Source: Acidobacteriota bacterium (GTDB lineage: Bacteria; Acidobacteriota; Polarisedimenticolia; Gp22-AA2). From it: DNA of 38,755 nucleotides. Under the pieces are notes generated by a model. It was given only the letters and a program-made list of their open reading frames with translations. It was not told where the DNA came from and did no database searches. Both the position numbers and the translations under genes were made by a program. Below, in pieces: positions 14,470-35,842 of the stretch; within the stretch, counting starts at the first letter, position 1; every line of letters begins with the position of its first letter. Location of the stretch: the NCBI GenBank assembly GCA_003223165.1, contig QHXZ01000030.1, forward strand, positions 1 to 38,755. Direction: 5' to 3'.

Positions 14470-15729
14470 GTGCCGACCTACCGCATCGTCACCATGGGCT
14501 GCAAGCTCAATCAAGCCGAGTCCTCGGCCGTCGAGGCGAGTCTGCGCGCCCTGGGTCTCTCGCGGCCGCTTCGCGAGGCGCGGCAGATCGCCCGGCGCCT
14601 GCGGCGGGCCAACCCGCGCGCGCTCCTCCTGGCGACCGGCTGCTACGCCGAGCGCGACGCCGAGGCGCTGCGGTCCGCGGCCGGTCTCGACGCAGTGGTG
14701 GGGCTGCACGATCAGCCCGGGCGCATCGCGCGCCTGGTCGCCGACGCGCTGGGCCCGCGCCTGCCCGCGGCCGGGAGCGATCTGGGCGAGCATGGGGCGA
14801 CGGCCGCCTGCGACCTGCGGGTGGAGGACGCCGACCGCACGCGCGCCTACCTCAAGGTGCAGGACGGCTGCGACCTGCGCTGCTCCTACTGCATCATTCC
14901 CTCGGTGCGCGGGGCCAGCCGCAGCCTCCCGCCGGACGCGATCGTGCACGCGCTCGCCCGCCTCGTGGAGGCCGGTTACCGTGAGATCGTCCTCACCGGG
15001 GTGAACACCGGCGACTACGGCAAGGACCTCGACCCGCCGCTGCGCCTCCACCACCTGCTGGAGCGGGCCTCGAGCGTGTCCGGCCTGGGGCGGCTCCGCC
15101 TCAACTCGCTCGAGCCGAGGACGGTGAGCGACGACCTGGTCGCGTTCCTGGCGGGAGAGGGCGGGAGGGTCGTGCCGCACCTCCAGATTCCGCTGCAGTC
15201 CGGAAGCGATGCCGTCCTGGCCCGCATGCGCCGGCCCTACCGCACGGCCGACTACGCCGCGATCGTGGAGCGCCTGCGCCGCCGCATCCCGCGCATCGGC
15301 ATCGGCGCCGACGTCATCGTCGGGTTCCCCGGGGAGAGCGACGCCGAGTTCGAGGAGACCGTCCTCTTCATCGCCTCCTCGCCGCTCTGCTACCTGCACG
15401 TCTTCTCGTATTCCGCGCGCCCCGGCACCCGTGCCGCGACGCTGCCGGACCAGGTCCCGCCCCCGATCATCAAGCAGCGCAGCGCGCGCCTGCGGGCCTT
15501 GGGGAGCGACCTGTCGCTGCGCTTCCGGGCCGGCCAGGTCGGGCGGGTCCTTCCGGTGCTCACCCTGCGCGAGGTCCGCGCCGATGGGCGCCTGCGCGCC
15601 CTCTCCGACAGCTTCATCGATCTCGGCCTCGACACCGGAGGGCGACCGCCGGAGCCGCTCTTCAACCGCCTGCTCGCCGCCCGCGTCACCGCCGCCAGCG
15701 CGCAGGACACGCTGGCCGTGATGGCCTGA
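14470..15729 (+). CDS. mtaB: MtaB-type tRNA methylthiotransferase (radical SAM), with internal N-terminal deletion
   Basis: A 419-residue MiaB-family enzyme, closest in its motifs to MtaB, which adds the 2-methylthio group to N6-threonylcarbamoyladenosine at tRNA position 37. The radical SAM motif is intact ([10 protein letters not shown]: Cys134, Cys138, Cys141), as are the downstream [30 protein letters not shown] and [19 protein letters not shown] blocks. The N-terminal UPF0004 domain normally carries three Cys for an auxiliary [4Fe-4S] cluster. Here Cys11 (MGCKLNQ) and Cys58 (TGCYAER) are present, but the middle one, normally in a motif like NTCTVT, is missing. The sequence jumps from RALGL to SRPLREARQ, about 24 residues short. 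A GTG start at 14470 follows purE by 3 bp. As read, the enzyme would probably be unable to methylthiolate. Confidence 0.88.
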
Positions 15730-16189: not shown

Positions 16190-16465
16190 CTACTTCTTGA
16201 TGAGGTCCTTGAGGGCCTTGGCGACGGTGAACTTCACCACCGTCTTGGCGGGGATCTGGATCGCCTCCCCGGTGGCGGGGTTGCGACCGATGCGGGCCTT
16301 CCTCTTCACGACCTTGAACTTCCCGAGGCCGGCCAGGGGAACCTCTCCCTCACGCTTCATCTCTTTCTCGACCAGACGGGTGAAGCCTTCGAGGAACACC
16401 TTGGCCTGCTTCTTGTCGCTTTCGGTCTCCTGCGCAATGGCGTCGATGAGCTCGGTGCGGGTCAT
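16190..16465 (-). CDS. hup: HU-family DNA-binding protein
   Basis: A 91-residue histone-like protein that bends and compacts DNA as a dimer. The N-terminus MTRTELIDAIAQE and the helix ahead of GEVPLAGLGKFKVV are typical of HU. The DNA-binding arm is RKARIGRNPATGEAIQIPAKTVV, with the conserved RNPxTG and Pro at the arm tip. The C-terminal AKALKDLIKK is also typical. The open frame extends upstream, but ATG 16465 is the right start: GGGAGG lies just ahead and the alignment begins there. The promoter candidate at 16533-16561 and 12-bp tandem repeats beyond it lie in the 133-bp gap to the helicase stop. Confidence 0.95.
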   Translation of the reverse strand: MTRTELIDAIAQETESDKKQAKVFLEGFTRLVEKEMKREGEVPLAGLGKFKVVKRKARIGRNPATGEAIQIPAKTVVKFTVAKALKDLIKK

Positions 16466-16598: not shown

Positions 16599-19500
16599 CT
16601 ACTTCCAGTCGACCGGCAGGCGGACCTGGCGGCCGTCCCGGTCGCGGTACAGGACGTAGCCATTGCGGCGCCCGAACAGGTAGAGGTCGCGGGTCACTTC
16701 CACGTCGCGGCGGCAGTACTGCTCGATCAGATCGACGCGCCCCTCCTTCCACCACTTGAGGGACTGGAGCCCGTCGGCGCTCTTGCCGACGTGCAGCGTG
16801 GCTTCGGCCAGGTCCCCCAGCTTCAGCCTGAAGCCGAGCTTGCGGTAGATGTCGGCCAGCATGTCGAACGTGCGTATGCGCGACAGGTCCCAGTCGGTAT
16901 AGGGCTTGAGGACCGGCAGATCGAACCGGTCGATGTTGTACCCCACGACGCGGTCGGCCATGACCAGGTCGAGGAGGAGACGGTCGACATCCTTCTCGTG
17001 GTAGGTCCGGAACTGCGAGCTGAGGTCGTTGTAGGTGATCGCCAGCGCCAGCTTCATGTCGGCGAGGTTCTGCCAGCCGCCCACCTCCTCGGCGCTCCTC
17101 TGGGTCTCGATGTCGAAGAACAGGATCTGCTCGCGCGCCGGGGCGCCTTCGGATGAACCGCGGCGCCGCGGTGTCGGCAGGGGCTCGGACTCGTCCCCCC
17201 GTCCCATGGCCTTGAGGGGCGGCCGCGCGCCGGCCGGGCGCGGGCCGGCGGGGCGTGGGCCGGCGGGCCCCTCGAGCGGCTGCTGGCCGCAGAGGACTTC
17301 CAGGATCAGCCGCGCCGCTCCCTTGTCGAGCGGATTGTTGCCATTGCCGCACTTCGGCGACTGGACGCAGGAGGGGCAGCCCGCCTCGCAGGGACACGAA
17401 GCGAGAAGCGTCGCGGTCCGGCGCAGCAGGTCCTCGAGCGCGGCGAACCCCTTGGCCGCCAGGCCGACGCCCCCCGGGTGCCCGTCGTAGATGAAGATCG
17501 CCGAGCGGCCGATCTGCGCATGCAGCGGATAGGAGATCCCGCCGATGTCGCCCCGGTCGCAGATGGCGAGCAAGGGGAAGAGCGCGATCAGGGCATGCTC
17601 GGCGGCGTGGATGGCGCCCATGAAGTGCCCCTGGCGCGCCAGCACCATGTCGCGCAAGGCGTCCGGCAGCGTGATCCACAGGCCGACGGTCTCGAAGGTC
17701 AGGGGAGGCAGCGTCAGATCGAAGAAGCCCAGGCGATCGCGGCCGAACAGGCGGCGCTTCTCGTACCCCGTGATCTCCTCCGTGACCCTGAGGCGTCCAA
17801 GGCTGGCGAAGAGCGGCCCGGCCCCGCGCTCCTCGAGCACCTCGAGGATTTCGGTCTCCTTCTCCCCGCGCACCTCGGTGTAGTACTCGACGTCCGCCGG
17901 CACCACCCTCACCCGGCGCGCCTCGATCGACAACTCACGCACCAGGTACTGCCGGCCCCGGTGCAGGTAGACCGCCCCCGTGTGCGTTTCGTGGAAGGCG
18001 CGTACCGCGTCGATGGTGCCGATCACCCGGTCGCCCTCCTCGTCGACGATCGTGTAGGTGGTGCCGATCGAGCGCAGGCTGACGTCGCGCTGCGGCCGGC
18101 GGCGCAGTGAGTACCAGCGGCCCCCGGCGGCGTCCTGCGCCAGGGCGCCCTCGTTCGCGAGGTCCTCGACCAGGCGGAACGTCGCGTCACCGTAGACCTC
18201 CCGGTCGCGCGGCTCCTCGAGCGGGATCTCCGCCCCGGCGCACACCAGGTGGGCGCGCGCCACCACCGGGTTCCCGGGATCGAAGACGACTTCCTCGAAG
18301 CCGCGGGTCAGAAACGCCTCGGGGTTGCTCATGAAATACTGGTCGAGCGCGTCGGGCATGGCGACGAGCACCGTCAGGCACGGACGATCGCCGCGCCCCA
18401 CCCTGCCGATGCGCTGCCAGGAGGAGACGATGCTGCCCGGGTAACCGACGAGAAGACAGACGTCGAGCCCGCCGATGTCCACCCCGAGCTCGAGCGCGCT
18501 CGTGGCGATCACCCCCTGCAGGTCGCCCTCGAACAGCCGCGCCTCGATGGCGCGCCGTTCCTCGGGCAGGTACCCGGAGCGGTAGGCGCTGACCCGGTCG
18601 CGGTAGCGGGGCGCCGCCTGCAGGAGCCACGAATGCAGCAGCTCGGTGATCTTGCGCGCCTTGGTGAAGGTGATCGCCCGGAACCCCTCGTCCAGAGCCC
18701 AGGCGAAGATCGCCGTGGCCGCGCTGTACGGGCTTCCGCGCGGGTTCAGGAAGAGCAGGTGCCGCGTGGCGCGCGGCGCGCCGCTGCGCTCGACCACCAC
18801 GAACGACCGGCCGGTGAGCGCCTGCCCCAGCCCTGCGGGGTTGGCGATGGTCGCCGAGGAAGCGATGTAGCGCGGGGCGCGGCCGTGACGGCCGGCCACG
18901 CGCTCCAGCCGCTTGAGGATGTGGTAGAGGTGCGACCCGAAGATCCCCCGGTAGACGTGCAGCTCGTCCAGGACGACGGTGTCGAGGTTCTCGAAGAAGG
19001 CGCGCCAGTCGTCATGGTGCGCCAGGATGCCCAGGTGCAGCATGTCGGGATTGGTAATCAGGATGTCCGGAGGATCGGCCTTGATCTTCCGGCGGCGCGA
19101 ATCGGGCGTGTCGCCGTCGTAGATGGCGGCGCTGACCGGCCTCCCGCCCGTGCCGGGCAGCCCGCCCGCCTCCGAGGGGACCAGCCCGCCGTAGGCCGCC
19201 GCCGCCCGGGCCAGCTCCTCGATCCCCTGCAGCTGATCCTGCGCCAGGGCCTTGTACGGGAAGAGGTAGAGCGCCCGGCTCCCTGGCCGCCGGAGGGCGG
19301 CCTCGAACGTCGGCAGCAGGTAGATCAGGCTCTTGCCGCTGGCCGTGGGGGTGACCGCCAGGACGTCGCGACCCTCGTGGACCCGGTTGATCGCCTCGGC
19401 CTGGTGGGCGTAGAGGCGCTCGATCCCGAGCGCCCCGAGGGCGCGTTGCAGCGCCTTGGGAAGCGGGTCGGCCAGCGTCCCGTAGGCCGCCGGCTCCGCC

Positions 19501-19634
19501 GGGACGGTGGCGGCCCAGACCACGTCGTCGCCGAGCTTCTCAGAGCGGCGGACGCGCTCGATGAACGATTCGACCGAGGGGGGGCGCGAGGGGGTCTCAC
19601 GGACGGCCCGGACCGCGCGCCGCGCGCCGCTCAC
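16599..19634 (-). CDS. mrfA: MrfA-like DEAD/DEAH helicase fused to MrfB-like 3'-5' exonuclease domain
   Basis: A 1,011-residue protein starting at GTG 19634, which overlaps the hbd stop (GTGA). Residues 20-430 are a superfamily 2 helicase: Walker A TPTASGKSL (Lys101), DELH at 223-226, SAT at 260-262, and motif VI QRIGRVGRG near 407-415. Residues 600-780 match the MrfA/YprA C-terminal (DUF1998) region, with clustered Cys747, 749, 753, 756 and 762 for metal binding. After a Pro/Gly-rich linker (788-835) comes an RNase H-like DEDDy exonuclease: FFDIETQ (Asp841, Glu843), YNIDRFDLP (Asp905) and YCRRDVEV (Tyr973, Asp977). In Bacillus subtilis, MrfA and MrfB are separate partners in mitomycin-damage excision repair; here they share one chain. 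That repair role is inferred. The upstream open frame to 20252 is antisense to nothing real and is not part of the gene. Confidence 0.88.
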   Translation of the reverse strand: MSGARRAVRAVRETPSRPPSVESFIERVRRSEKLGDDVVWAATVPAEPAAYGTLADPLPKALQRALGALGIERLYAHQAEAINRVHEGRDVLAVTPTASGKSLIYLLPTFEAALRRPGSRALYLFPYKALAQDQLQGIEELARAAAAYGGLVPSEAGGLPGTGGRPVSAAIYDGDTPDSRRRKIKADPPDILITNPDMLHLGILAHHDDWRAFFENLDTVVLDELHVYRGIFGSHLYHILKRLERVAGRHGRAPRYIASSATIANPAGLGQALTGRSFVVVERSGAPRATRHLLFLNPRGSPYSAATAIFAWALDEGFRAITFTKARKITELLHSWLLQAAPRYRDRVSAYRSGYLPEERRAIEARLFEGDLQGVIATSALELGVDIGGLDVCLLVGYPGSIVSSWQRIGRVGRGDRPCLTVLVAMPDALDQYFMSNPEAFLTRGFEEVVFDPGNPVVARAHLVCAGAEIPLEEPRDREVYGDATFRLVEDLANEGALAQDAAGGRWYSLRRRPQRDVSLRSIGTTYTIVDEEGDRVIGTIDAVRAFHETHTGAVYLHRGRQYLVRELSIEARRVRVVPADVEYYTEVRGEKETEILEVLEERGAGPLFASLGRLRVTEEITGYEKRRLFGRDRLGFFDLTLPPLTFETVGLWITLPDALRDMVLARQGHFMGAIHAAEHALIALFPLLAICDRGDIGGISYPLHAQIGRSAIFIYDGHPGGVGLAAKGFAALEDLLRRTATLLASCPCEAGCPSCVQSPKCGNGNNPLDKGAARLILEVLCGQQPLEGPAGPRPAGPRPAGARPPLKAMGRGDESEPLPTPRRRGSSEGAPAREQILFFDIETQRSAEEVGGWQNLADMKLALAITYNDLSSQFRTYHEKDVDRLLLDLVMADRVVGYNIDRFDLPVLKPYTDWDLSRIRTFDMLADIYRKLGFRLKLGDLAEATLHVGKSADGLQSLKWWKEGRVDLIEQYCRRDVEVTRDLYLFGRRNGYVLYRDRDGRQVRLPVDWK

Positions 19635-20506
19635 CGCGGCGCCCCCTGGGAGTAATCGTAGAAGCCGCGCCCCGACTTGCGTCCCAGATGGCCGGCATCG
19701 ACGAGGCGCCGCAGCAGGGGACAGGGACGGTACTTGGGGTCCCCGAACCCCTCTTGCAGGATCTCGAGGATCGACAGGCAGGTATCCAGGCCGATGAAGT
19801 CGGCCAGCGCCAGCGGGCCCATCGGGTGCCGCATCCCGAGCGTCATGACCGTGTCGATATCGTCCCGGGTGCCGAGCCCCTCGTACAGGGCGAAGATCGC
19901 CTCGTTGATCATCGGCATCAGCACCCGGTTCGAGATGAACCCGGGCAGGTCCTGCGACAGCACCGGCGTCTTCCCCATCCGCAGCGCCAGCGCCACCGTG
20001 TCGTCCGTGGTGGCCCGCGAGGTCGCCTGCCCGGGCACCACCTCGATCAGCTTCATGACCGGGACGGGGTTCATGAAGTGCATCCCGACCACCCTTTCGG
20101 GCCGCCGCGTGGCCGCGGCGATGCGGGTGATCGATAGCGACGAGGTGTTGGTCGCCAGGACGACCTCCGGACGGCATCCCGCGTCGAGCGCCTCGAAGAT
20201 CTGCATCTTGAGCGGCAGCCGCTCGCTGACCGCCTCCACCACGAAGTCGCACGCCGCCAGGTCCTTCAGCTCGGTGGTGGTGCGGACCTGGCGGATCGCC
20301 GTCCCCTTGTCGGCCTGCGCCATCCCTCCCTTCTCGACCAGGCGCTGCAGGCCTTTGTCGATCGCCTCCAGGGCCGCCACGAGGGCGCGCTTCTCGCTGT
20401 CGTGCAGGACCACCGAGAAGTCCGCCATCACCGCCGCCTGGGCGATGCCGCCGCCCATCTGGCCGGCACCCACGACTCCGATCGTCCTGACGCTGTCGAT
20501 CCCCAC
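19631..20506 (-). CDS. hbd: 3-hydroxyacyl/3-hydroxybutyryl-CoA dehydrogenase
   Basis: A 291-residue dehydrogenase interconverting acetoacetyl-CoA and (S)-3-hydroxybutyryl-CoA with NAD(P)H. The N-terminal Rossmann fold has IGVVGAGQMGGGIAQAA (residues 9-25). NTSSLSIT, the catalytic His143 in MHFMNPVPVMKLIEV, and PGFISNRVLMPMINEA with the following helical domain are all in place. Length is typical. It starts at ATG 20506 and lies 7 bp after the upstream unknown gene. Its TGA overlaps the GTG of the helicase fusion. With the thiolase at the head of this set it supplies two consecutive steps of C4 acyl-CoA metabolism. Confidence 0.95.
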   Translation of the reverse strand: MGIDSVRTIGVVGAGQMGGGIAQAAVMADFSVVLHDSEKRALVAALEAIDKGLQRLVEKGGMAQADKGTAIRQVRTTTELKDLAACDFVVEAVSERLPLKMQIFEALDAGCRPEVVLATNTSSLSITRIAAATRRPERVVGMHFMNPVPVMKLIEVVPGQATSRATTDDTVALALRMGKTPVLSQDLPGFISNRVLMPMINEAIFALYEGLGTRDDIDTVMTLGMRHPMGPLALADFIGLDTCLSILEILQEGFGDPKYRPCPLLRRLVDAGHLGRKSGRGFYDYSQGAPR

Positions 20507-33625: not shown

Positions 33626-35842
33626 ATGGACCCGCTCCTCGATCCGCTCAACCCGCCGCAGCGCGAGGCGGTGCTGCACACGGAGGGGCCGCTCCTCATC
33701 GTCGCCGGCGCCGGCTCGGGCAAGACCCGCGTCATCGTGCACCGCCTGGCCTTCATCCTGAAGCAGGGCCTGGCGCCGCCGCAGGAGGTGGCGGCGGTCA
33801 CCTTCACCAACAAGGCCGCGGGAGAGATGAAGGAGAGGGTCGACGCCCTGGTCGGGGCGCACCATGGCGGGGCGCAGGTCTCGACCTTCCACTCCTGGTG
33901 CCTGCGGCTGCTGCGCCGCCACGCCGGGCGGGTCGGCTACAGGGACGGCTTCGTGGTCTACGACGATGCCGACCAGACGGCGCTTCTCAAGGACTGCCTC
34001 GCCGAGCTGCAGATCGACGACCGCTCCTTCCCGCCGCGCCTGTTCCGGCGCCTCATCAGCGACGCCAAGAACCGCGGCCTCGACGCGGCCGGCCTCGAGG
34101 CGCTCAAGGAGGGCTTCCAGGACGAGCAGGCGGCGAAGGTCTACGCGCTTTACCAGGATCGGCTGAAGGCCTGCAACGCCATGGACTTCGACGACCTGAT
34201 CGGCCAGGTCCTGGCGCTCTTCGACGGGCATCCCGATCTGGCGCGCGAGGTGGCGGCGCGGGTGCGCTACCTGATGGTGGACGAGTACCAGGACACCAAC
34301 CCGCCGCAGTACCGTCTGATCCGGGCCCTGGCCGCGGTGCACGGCAACATCTGCGCGGTCGGCGACCCGGACCAGTCGATCTACCGCTTCCGGTTCGCCG
34401 ACATCCGCAACATCCTCTCCTTCGAGAGGGACTTCCCGGGGACGCGCACCATCAAGCTGGAGCAGAACTACCGCTCGACCGGGAACATCCGCGAAGCGGC
34501 CTCCGCGGTGGTGCGCCGCAATCGCGGCCGGATCGACAAGGATCTCTGGTGCGACGCCCCCGCGGGGGATCCGATCGAGGTGCTGACCGCCATCGACGAC
34601 CGGCACGAGGCCGACCTCGTGGTGCGGCGGGTCCAGGACCTGCGCCGGCGCGACCGCGAGCTGGACGCCATCGCCGTGCTGTACCGCACCAACGCCCAAT
34701 CGCGCTCGCTCGAGGAGGCGCTGGTGCGCGCCGGGCTGCCGTACATCGTGGTCGGCGGCACGCGCTTCTACGACCGCCGGGAGATCAAGGACCTGGTCGC
34801 CTACCTGCGGGCCATCGTGAACCCGCGGGACGAGGTCAGCCTGCGGCGCATCGTGAACACGCCGCCGCGGGACCTGGGCCGCGCCACGCTCGACACGGTG
34901 CAGGACGTGGCCCGCAAGGATGGCTCGACGCTCGAGACGGCGATGCGCAAGACGCTCGACCTGGGTCTCGTGGCCGGGCGCGCCTCCAAGGCGCTGGCGG
35001 GCTTCCTCGACCTGATGGCCGACCTGCGGCGCGAGGCGGCCGGGCTGCCCCCCGGCAGGCTGCTGGCCGCCGTGGTGGAGCGCACCGGCTTCGAGGCCTA
35101 CCTCGAGAGGACGTCCCCCGGCGACGCCACGGCCCGCGTCGAGAACCTCCAGGAATTGGGGAACGCGGTCGCCGCCTTCGACGGCCTCGAGGGAGGGCTG
35201 CAGGCGTTTCTCGATCGCACGGCGCTCCTGTCCGAGAGCGAGAACGTGCAGGGGACGTCCGGAGTGCGCCTGATGACCCTGCACGCCGCCAAGGGACTGG
35301 AGTTCCCGGTGGTCTTCATCACCGGGCTCGAGGAGGACCTCTTCCCGCACGCGCGCTCGGGCGAGGAGCACGACGATATCGAGGAGGAGCGTCGCCTGTT
35401 CTACGTCGGCATGACGCGCGCGCGCGAGCGGCTGATCCTCAGCCGCGCGCTGGCGCGGCGCCTGTTCGGCGAGCCGCGCTCCGCCGAGCCTTCGCGCTTC
35501 CTGCACGAGGTGCCCGCGCACCTGGTGCGCGAGGCGATCGGCGACGATCCGTACGGGGCGCGGTTGCGCGTCGCCGCCGAGGCCCTTGCCGCTCGCGGCG
35601 GCCGGGGCCCCGCCTCCGGACTCGGCCGGCGCGTGGAGGCGATCGCCGCCGATCTCCCCGACGACGCGCCGCCGGCCGCCGGGCCCTACACGCTGGGGTG
35701 CAAGGTGCACCATCCCGAGTACGGGGTCGGCACGGTCATCGGCGTGGAAGGAAGCGGCGACAAGCTCAAGCTCACCGTGTCCTTCTCGATCTACGGCTCG
35801 AAGAAGTTCCTGCCGCGCTACGCCAGGCTGGAGAGGATCTGA
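33626..35842 (+). CDS. uvrD: UvrD/PcrA-type ATP-dependent DNA helicase
   Basis: A 738-residue superfamily 1 3'-5' helicase for nucleotide excision repair, mismatch repair and clearing of recombination intermediates. It has Walker A GAGSGKTR (residues 28-35), TFTNKAAGEM, STFHSWCLRLLRRH, VDEYQDTN (about 219-226), GDPDQSIYRFRFADI, EQNYRST, LMTLHAAKGLEFPVVF, and VGMTRARERL near 600. The C-terminal GCKVHHPEYGVGTVIGV region is the Tudor-like domain of PcrA that contacts RNA polymerase. Length is typical. The start ATG 33626 is almost at the predicted transcript start. No nearby repair partner other than this gene was seen; the other repair helicase in the window is at 16599-19634. Confidence 0.96.
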   Translation: MDPLLDPLNPPQREAVLHTEGPLLIVAGAGSGKTRVIVHRLAFILKQGLAPPQEVAAVTFTNKAAGEMKERVDALVGAHHGGAQVSTFHSWCLRLLRRHAGRVGYRDGFVVYDDADQTALLKDCLAELQIDDRSFPPRLFRRLISDAKNRGLDAAGLEALKEGFQDEQAAKVYALYQDRLKACNAMDFDDLIGQVLALFDGHPDLAREVAARVRYLMVDEYQDTNPPQYRLIRALAAVHGNICAVGDPDQSIYRFRFADIRNILSFERDFPGTRTIKLEQNYRSTGNIREAASAVVRRNRGRIDKDLWCDAPAGDPIEVLTAIDDRHEADLVVRRVQDLRRRDRELDAIAVLYRTNAQSRSLEEALVRAGLPYIVVGGTRFYDRREIKDLVAYLRAIVNPRDEVSLRRIVNTPPRDLGRATLDTVQDVARKDGSTLETAMRKTLDLGLVAGRASKALAGFLDLMADLRREAAGLPPGRLLAAVVERTGFEAYLERTSPGDATARVENLQELGNAVAAFDGLEGGLQAFLDRTALLSESENVQGTSGVRLMTLHAAKGLEFPVVFITGLEEDLFPHARSGEEHDDIEEERRLFYVGMTRARERLILSRALARRLFGEPRSAEPSRFLHEVPAHLVREAIGDDPYGARLRVAAEALAARGGRGPASGLGRRVEAIAADLPDDAPPAAGPYTLGCKVHHPEYGVGTVIGVEGSGDKLKLTVSFSIYGSKKFLPRYARLERI

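Follow-up and report, generated by a model that had tools for sequence, protein, structure and literature searches.

A YprA-family helicase joined to a DEDDy exonuclease in an Acidobacteriota genome: a probable parallel to MrfAB rather than a fused MrfAB

Introduction

The closest described counterpart of the protein reported here is MrfAB of Bacillus subtilis, which has a role in DNA repair (PMC11194089). The same work describes MrfB as a DEDDh exonuclease (Asp107, Glu109, Asp172, His258 and Asp262) that carries a Leu113 wedge and a C-terminal TPR domain. MrfB has a role in mitomycin C repair, and published work has it that complementation requires close relatives. MrfA is a YprA helicase; in a 2025 preprint the YprA tree includes a 'DNA repair-related' branch, and MrfA and SftH are given as the YprA helicases measured so far, both with 3'-5' movement (PMC12458937). 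A single clause there mentions, for the repair branch, fusion to 'MrfB/YprB homologs'. This is the same fused architecture as ours, and in the accessible text a DEDDy, non-MrfB exonuclease is not split from true MrfB (PMC12458937). Human WRN (PMC1435914) and Staphylococcus aureus DinG (PMC12345164) also hold a helicase and a 3'-5' exonuclease in one chain; their helicases are of other families and they serve as an analogy only.

A preliminary description of a locus from the Polarisedimenticolia, a class for which a literature search on DNA repair found nothing, read it as an MrfA-like helicase and an MrfB-like exonuclease fused in one chain. We find that the fusion is real and that it is a parallel helicase-exonuclease pairing, not a fused MrfAB. 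The fusion itself has already been mentioned in the preprint; the new part is the DEDDy, non-MrfB nature of its exonuclease, of which, as a separate DEDDy family, we found no description in the literature searched, subscription journals lying outside that search.

Results

The gene lies on the minus strand at 16599..19634 of the window (the whole stretch of 38,755 nucleotides that was analysed), in a draft genome of 3.06 Mb that is 85% complete. Translation of 16602-19634, supported by alignment of homologues, yields an uninterrupted chain of 1,011 residues from a GTG start, with the stop codon at 16599-16601. The GTG overlaps by 4 nt (GTGA) the stop of the upstream neighbour, a gene for a 3-hydroxyacyl-CoA dehydrogenase (19631..20506, minus strand; Pfam 3HCDH_N/3HCDH) whose role is metabolic and not in repair. 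The reading frame stays open 5' of the GTG, and homologues align only from about residue 6-22 onward, which supports the GTG as the start.

As the preliminary description had it, the chain consists of a helicase, a Pro/Gly-rich linker and a complete exonuclease, and both the translation and Pfam bear this out. Residues 36-785 (17280..19529, minus strand) form an SF2 helicase of the MrfA/YprA family, identified by Pfam, PDB 6znp and Foldseek, with RecA1/RecA2, a winged helix, an OB/connector region and an MZB/DUF1998 domain in that layout. The zinc-region cysteines (Cys747, 749, 753, 756 and 762; 17349..17396, minus strand) were assigned from their invariance and from the MZB domain at 678-757. 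A Pro/Gly/Arg-rich linker follows (residues 786-835; 17130..17279, minus strand); its pLDDT is below 50 at 803-831 and its length varies from about 30 to 127 residues in relatives. The DEDDy exonuclease domain occupies residues 836-1011 (16602..17129, minus strand), with a PF13482 match, invariant catalytic residues and a confident model (pLDDT 95.9). In the predicted structure, then, the protein is two confident globular modules on a disordered tether. All of the residues singled out beforehand (Lys101, DELH 223-226, the cysteines, Asp841/Glu843, Asp905 and Tyr973/Asp977) were found at their places and are conserved in relatives: catalytic and zinc residues are invariant in 20 sequences of the class, except in one row that lacks the N-terminus, and the cysteines are invariant also in a 54-row alignment.

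A frameshift or an assembly error joining two genes is ruled out, as dozens of independent genomes share this architecture. Among the source genome and its relatives a match was obtained in 40 of 41, mostly along the whole fused chain, and in several phyla the fusion recurs as an unbroken frame with 43-78% identity, which excludes an assembly artefact. Searching named genomes with an exonuclease profile turned up 80 loci (Acidobacteriota, Myxococcota, Thermodesulfobacteriota, Methylomirabilota, Nitrospinota, Nitrospirota, Poribacteria, KSB1, Aerophobetes, FCPU426 and Chloroflexota), with the helicase in the same frame as the exonuclease at 67 and no YprA helicase found in the flank at the other 13. 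The fusion also recurs in 25 of 149 Acidobacteriota genomes (18 as a single match and 7 confirmed at the locus). In a second phylum, that of L045, a Desulfobacterales record, 24 of the 79 genomes surveyed have it. In one single-contig genome (G039:C1) the N-terminal and C-terminal portions of the chain map to opposite strands, separated by half a megabase (181757-183346 and 700108-701250), which is a rearrangement or a misassembly.

The helicase has the features of the YprA/MrfA family in the broad sense: an SF2 core with a Walker A lysine and a DExH box, and a DUF1998/MZB zinc domain. Pfam places DEAD at 76-264, Helicase_C at 315-414, the HRQ1-type winged helix (WHD_HRQ1) at 452-523 and the MZB 'MrfA Zn-binding' domain (PF09369) at 678-757 (E 3.4e-23). 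Residues 40-758 match MrfA (PDB 6znp) with E 2.1e-133 in a sequence search, and in Foldseek no PDB chain matches better than 6znp (E 1.7e-71, with Lhr far behind at 4.8e-23). The whole helicase architecture of B. subtilis MrfA, including the winged helix and the zinc domain, is thus present in the fusion, which differs from it in adding a C-terminal exonuclease and in standing outside the clade that MrfB accompanies. The helicase of the window is 36.0% identical to B. subtilis MrfA, and fused helicases as a group average 36% (32-40), against a mean of 50% for the helicases with a separate MrfB. In an unrooted tree of 54 rows B. subtilis MrfA groups with the latter to the exclusion of all fused helicases (SH-aLRT 100). 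A second unrooted tree of 27 rows left out the outgroup L183, since its very long branch made it unsafe for rooting, and again gave B. subtilis MrfA and the split type as a clade (bootstrap/SH-aLRT 100/100) with the fused helicases outside. Judged by sequence comparison, the fused helicase adjoins the MrfA clade and is not inside it, and so the proposed likeness to MrfA holds for family and fold and fails for MrfA in the strict sense. TIGR03817 was rejected as a discriminator of these clades: fused helicases, split ones and B. subtilis MrfA score alike, at 633-711 bits, all below its cut-off. A helicase on the fused side that has no exonuclease was seen in genome G137 (L169 2018-4342 and L170), which also has an MrfA-type helicase.

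The recognised neighbours of the fusion gene are metabolic or housekeeping genes, and no repair gene was seen among them in its apparent operon. In L005-L009 and L013 a GFYDY motif, from the C-terminus of the dehydrogenase, immediately precedes the fusion, and the dehydrogenase gene is seemingly kept upstream in some relatives. A gene for an HU-type DNA-binding protein lies just downstream on the same strand (16190-16465); elsewhere in the window are genes for a radical SAM (MiaB-like) protein (14470-15729) and a UvrD/PcrA-type helicase (33626-35842). This setting bears on the possibility that the protein is an anti-phage defence helicase-nuclease like those of ARMADA, Druantia or TALON, whose YprA helicases also carry C-terminal nuclease domains (PMC12458937). 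PADLOC matches do cover our helicase. However, they fall on shared helicase and zinc-domain regions, MrfA is the best family and the best fold, and conservation across the class together with a metabolic neighbourhood is unlike a defence island. Partner genes specific to ARMADA, Druantia, DISARM and Dpd were not found among the recognised neighbours. With neither the PADLOC match regions nor the neighbours in its support, we regard a defence role as very unlikely.

The exonuclease displays the marks of a DEDDy enzyme, namely DxE, D, Y-x3-D and a polymerase-proofreading fold, and its active site is intact, as had been claimed. Asp841, Glu843, Tyr973 and Asp977 are present in 101 of 101 exonuclease relatives and Asp905 in 100. 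The claim had also taken B. subtilis MrfB to be DEDDy; published MrfB is DEDDh, with its catalytic His four residues before the last catalytic Asp (PMC11194089), and at that position all 101 relatives have Tyr. Both exonucleases fall in PF13482 (RNase_H_2), use DEDD chemistry and have a YprA helicase as the type of partner, but the match of the fusion (838-985) scores 27-33 bits against a cut-off of 22, whereas true MrfBs score 119-135. The MrfB wedge position, Leu113, is Ser847 here (Ser in 82 and Leu in 13 of the 101 relatives), Pfam detects no TPR in the fusion and the chain stops at the end of the exonuclease fold. The fused type has a signature of its own, F-D-x-E-T-Q-x-S-A-x-E-V-G-G-W, and its N-terminal motif is ETQRSAEEVGGW where MrfB has ETTGL.

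A fused-type profile built from 81 exonucleases, mostly fused ones, gave 2-18 bits with MrfBs (median 6.4; B. subtilis MrfB, PDB 8un9, 4.5) and 20-29 with DNA_pol_B_exo2-like proteins, a gap whose size should not be over-read given that the latter set is five sequences; in the other direction, an MrfB profile gave fused-type exonucleases 4-20 bits (median 10.7). Likewise, hhalign gave E 1.1e-14 against DNA_pol_B_exo2-like proteins and 1.7e-6 (probability 90) against MrfB. The likeness to DNA_pol_B_exo2 and to B-family proofreading domains extends to the DEDDy site and a Y-C-x-x-D-V motif, although the Pfam score is borderline: PF10108 reaches 25.2 bits (cut-off 24) on the isolated domain and 18.6 on the whole protein, over part of the profile only. 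There is also a weak DNA_pol_A_exo1 match. Because a PDB sequence search with the exonuclease profile returned no chain at E<=10, we turned to a fold search, in which the closest matches of the model were archaeal B-family DNA polymerases (9oN-7 and Tgo; TM 0.67-0.68), the matched part being, to judge by its size, their proofreading domain. MrfB (8un9) is absent among the 50 best fold matches listed. Such a search separates these families less well than profiles do, since, according to the MrfB paper, MrfB too has PolB proofreading domains as its nearest folds (PMC11194089).

True MrfBs do occur in Acidobacteriota, as separate genes with frames of 416-561 residues, D-x-E-T-T-G and H-N-x-x-D motifs and the wedge motif DxETTGL; one of them matches 8un9 with E 7.6e-34, and clear TPR repeats were found in one (L173) of three scanned. 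Could the fused exonuclease be such an MrfB that has diverged, by a change of His to Tyr and loss of the TPR, beyond profile recognition? Common membership in PF13482, the hhalign link to MrfB, the wording of the preprint (PMC12458937) and the variability of the H/Y position within RNase_H_2 (L102 has YNIQDV) all speak for a genuine MrfA-MrfB fusion. Against it, profiles and hhalign alike find the fused type more similar to DNA_pol_B_exo2-like proteins than it is to MrfB, the N-terminal motif differs, there is no TPR, and the helicase clades separate at 100/100. We consider this origin unlikely. The exonuclease was expected to be MrfB unless another RNase H-like family fitted it better; on profile scores another does, and by sequence the fused enzyme is not MrfB but probably belongs to a different DEDD branch, its profile nearer to DNA_pol_B_exo2-like enzymes. 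The DEDDh/DEDDy difference by itself was set aside as proof of separate families, being insufficient since L102-type RNase_H_2 proteins carry Tyr. L102 (1231-2094) is a short RNase_H_2 protein with D-x-E-T-T-G and Y-N-x-x-D, neither MrfB nor fused type.

A survey of fused against split systems found, besides the 25 Acidobacteriota genomes with the fusion, 44 of the 149 with a more distant, MrfA-type helicase (35-45% identity); in the second phylum the figures were 24 and 10 of 79. In Acidobacteriota genomes common to both surveys, the profile detected MrfB in 17 of 17 with the MrfA type, either directly downstream of the helicase or elsewhere in the genome, and in none of the 12 fused ones (Fisher p 2e-8, without correction for kinship). 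The source genome, at its 85% completeness, has no separate MrfB, its sole PF13482 match being the fused one. In the second phylum a long RNase_H_2 frame immediately follows the helicase in 10 of 10 MrfA-type genomes, and none of the 79 genomes holds both the fusion and an MrfA-type helicase. At other loci, several fused genomes there carry a shorter RNase_H_2 gene (about 160-340 residues, classed by length only); such short frames are frequent in this phylum. As far as sequence surveys tell, the distribution of the fused system is complementary to that of MrfAB.

Some other arrangements were noted. In several Acidobacteriota families MrfA and MrfB co-occur at non-adjacent loci (L107, L113, L115-L120 with L152, L166-L168 and L171), unlike the B. 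subtilis operon. An RNase_H_2 gene cut by the contig end (G214:C17:2-373; 98.9 bits) stands directly upstream of a YprA-type helicase gene (403-2637), and L154 has a similar MrfB-like frame upstream.

Lone DEDDy exonuclease genes of about 200-270 residues are found in genomes with no YprA-type helicase match, in the complete chromosomes G095 and G096 (L057 4737-5543 and L078 4896-5525) and at L176. In two complete chromosomes that carry the exonuclease alone, those of Nitrospinaceae bin1391 and Ca. Manganitrophus GAC4, the search found no YprA-type helicase and only weaker matches to other helicases. Lone copies are interspersed with fused ones on the exonuclease tree and force at least three changes, so loss or formation of the fusion has occurred repeatedly. 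Given stand-alone copies in these and other genomes without a YprA helicase, the exonuclease may also have an independent role. They also lend something to the idea that helicase and exonuclease have separate substrates (for the exonuclease, for example, RNA or short oligonucleotides as with RNase D/NrnC) and that the fusion merely couples their amounts, an idea to which the flexible linker and the weak DNA_pol_A_exo1 match are likewise congenial. Against this, DNA polymerase proofreading domains are the best fold matches and the fusion has been kept in many phyla, and we think it improbable.

Discussion

We favor the explanation, with a probability of roughly 60%, that the protein is a chromosomal housekeeping chain of helicase and DEDDy exonuclease which fills the niche of MrfA-MrfB. 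Our case is built from sequence: the fusion, the intact active sites, their conservation, the separate identity of the two halves and a distribution complementary to that of MrfAB. The fused protein is probably a DNA repair enzyme that works like MrfAB; we found no report in the literature of the activity of any fused member.

The polarity, the substrate, the repair role and the hand-over between the domains are what we infer, and a plausible scenario is as follows. The ATP-driven helicase would be expected to have the 3'-5' polarity measured for MrfA and SftH. It would load on single-stranded DNA beside a nick, a gap or a blocked 3' end and move 3'-5', while the tethered 3'-5' exonuclease would follow behind it along that strand, trim from the 3' end through the damage and leave a gap for resynthesis. 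Lacking the leucine wedge of MrfB, the exonuclease probably depends on 3' ends that are frayed or single-stranded, and the motor may melt duplex that it could not open by itself. In this scenario the fusion would hold the place that MrfA-MrfB has in other Acidobacteriota, with an exonuclease from another DEDD branch and a helicase of an adjoining clade.

The preliminary description took the fusion as support for a direct physical partnership of MrfA and MrfB and for a machine of fixed 1:1 stoichiometry. The latter follows trivially from the fusion. As for the partnership, the fusion supports it by analogy only, because its exonuclease fits another family better than MrfB and, strictly speaking, its helicase is not MrfA nor its exonuclease MrfB; the fusion as such is no evidence of MrfA-MrfB contact.

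More broadly, we put at about even odds a picture in which YprA helicases were paired on at least two occasions with 3'-5' exonucleases of different DEDD branches, MrfA with the DEDDh-TPR enzyme MrfB in a split form and an adjoining helicase clade with a DEDDy, PolB-proofreading-like enzyme in a fused one. The two systems would be mutually exclusive and do the same excision-repair job, the DEDDy exonuclease functioning also without the helicase in some lineages. For annotators there is a warning, as the label 'fused MrfAB' lumps two exonuclease families. The fusion would offer a single-chain model for helicase-coupled 3'-5' excision that can be tested by purifying a single protein, and it suggests that MrfA-MrfB is probably just one of two ways to build such a partnership.
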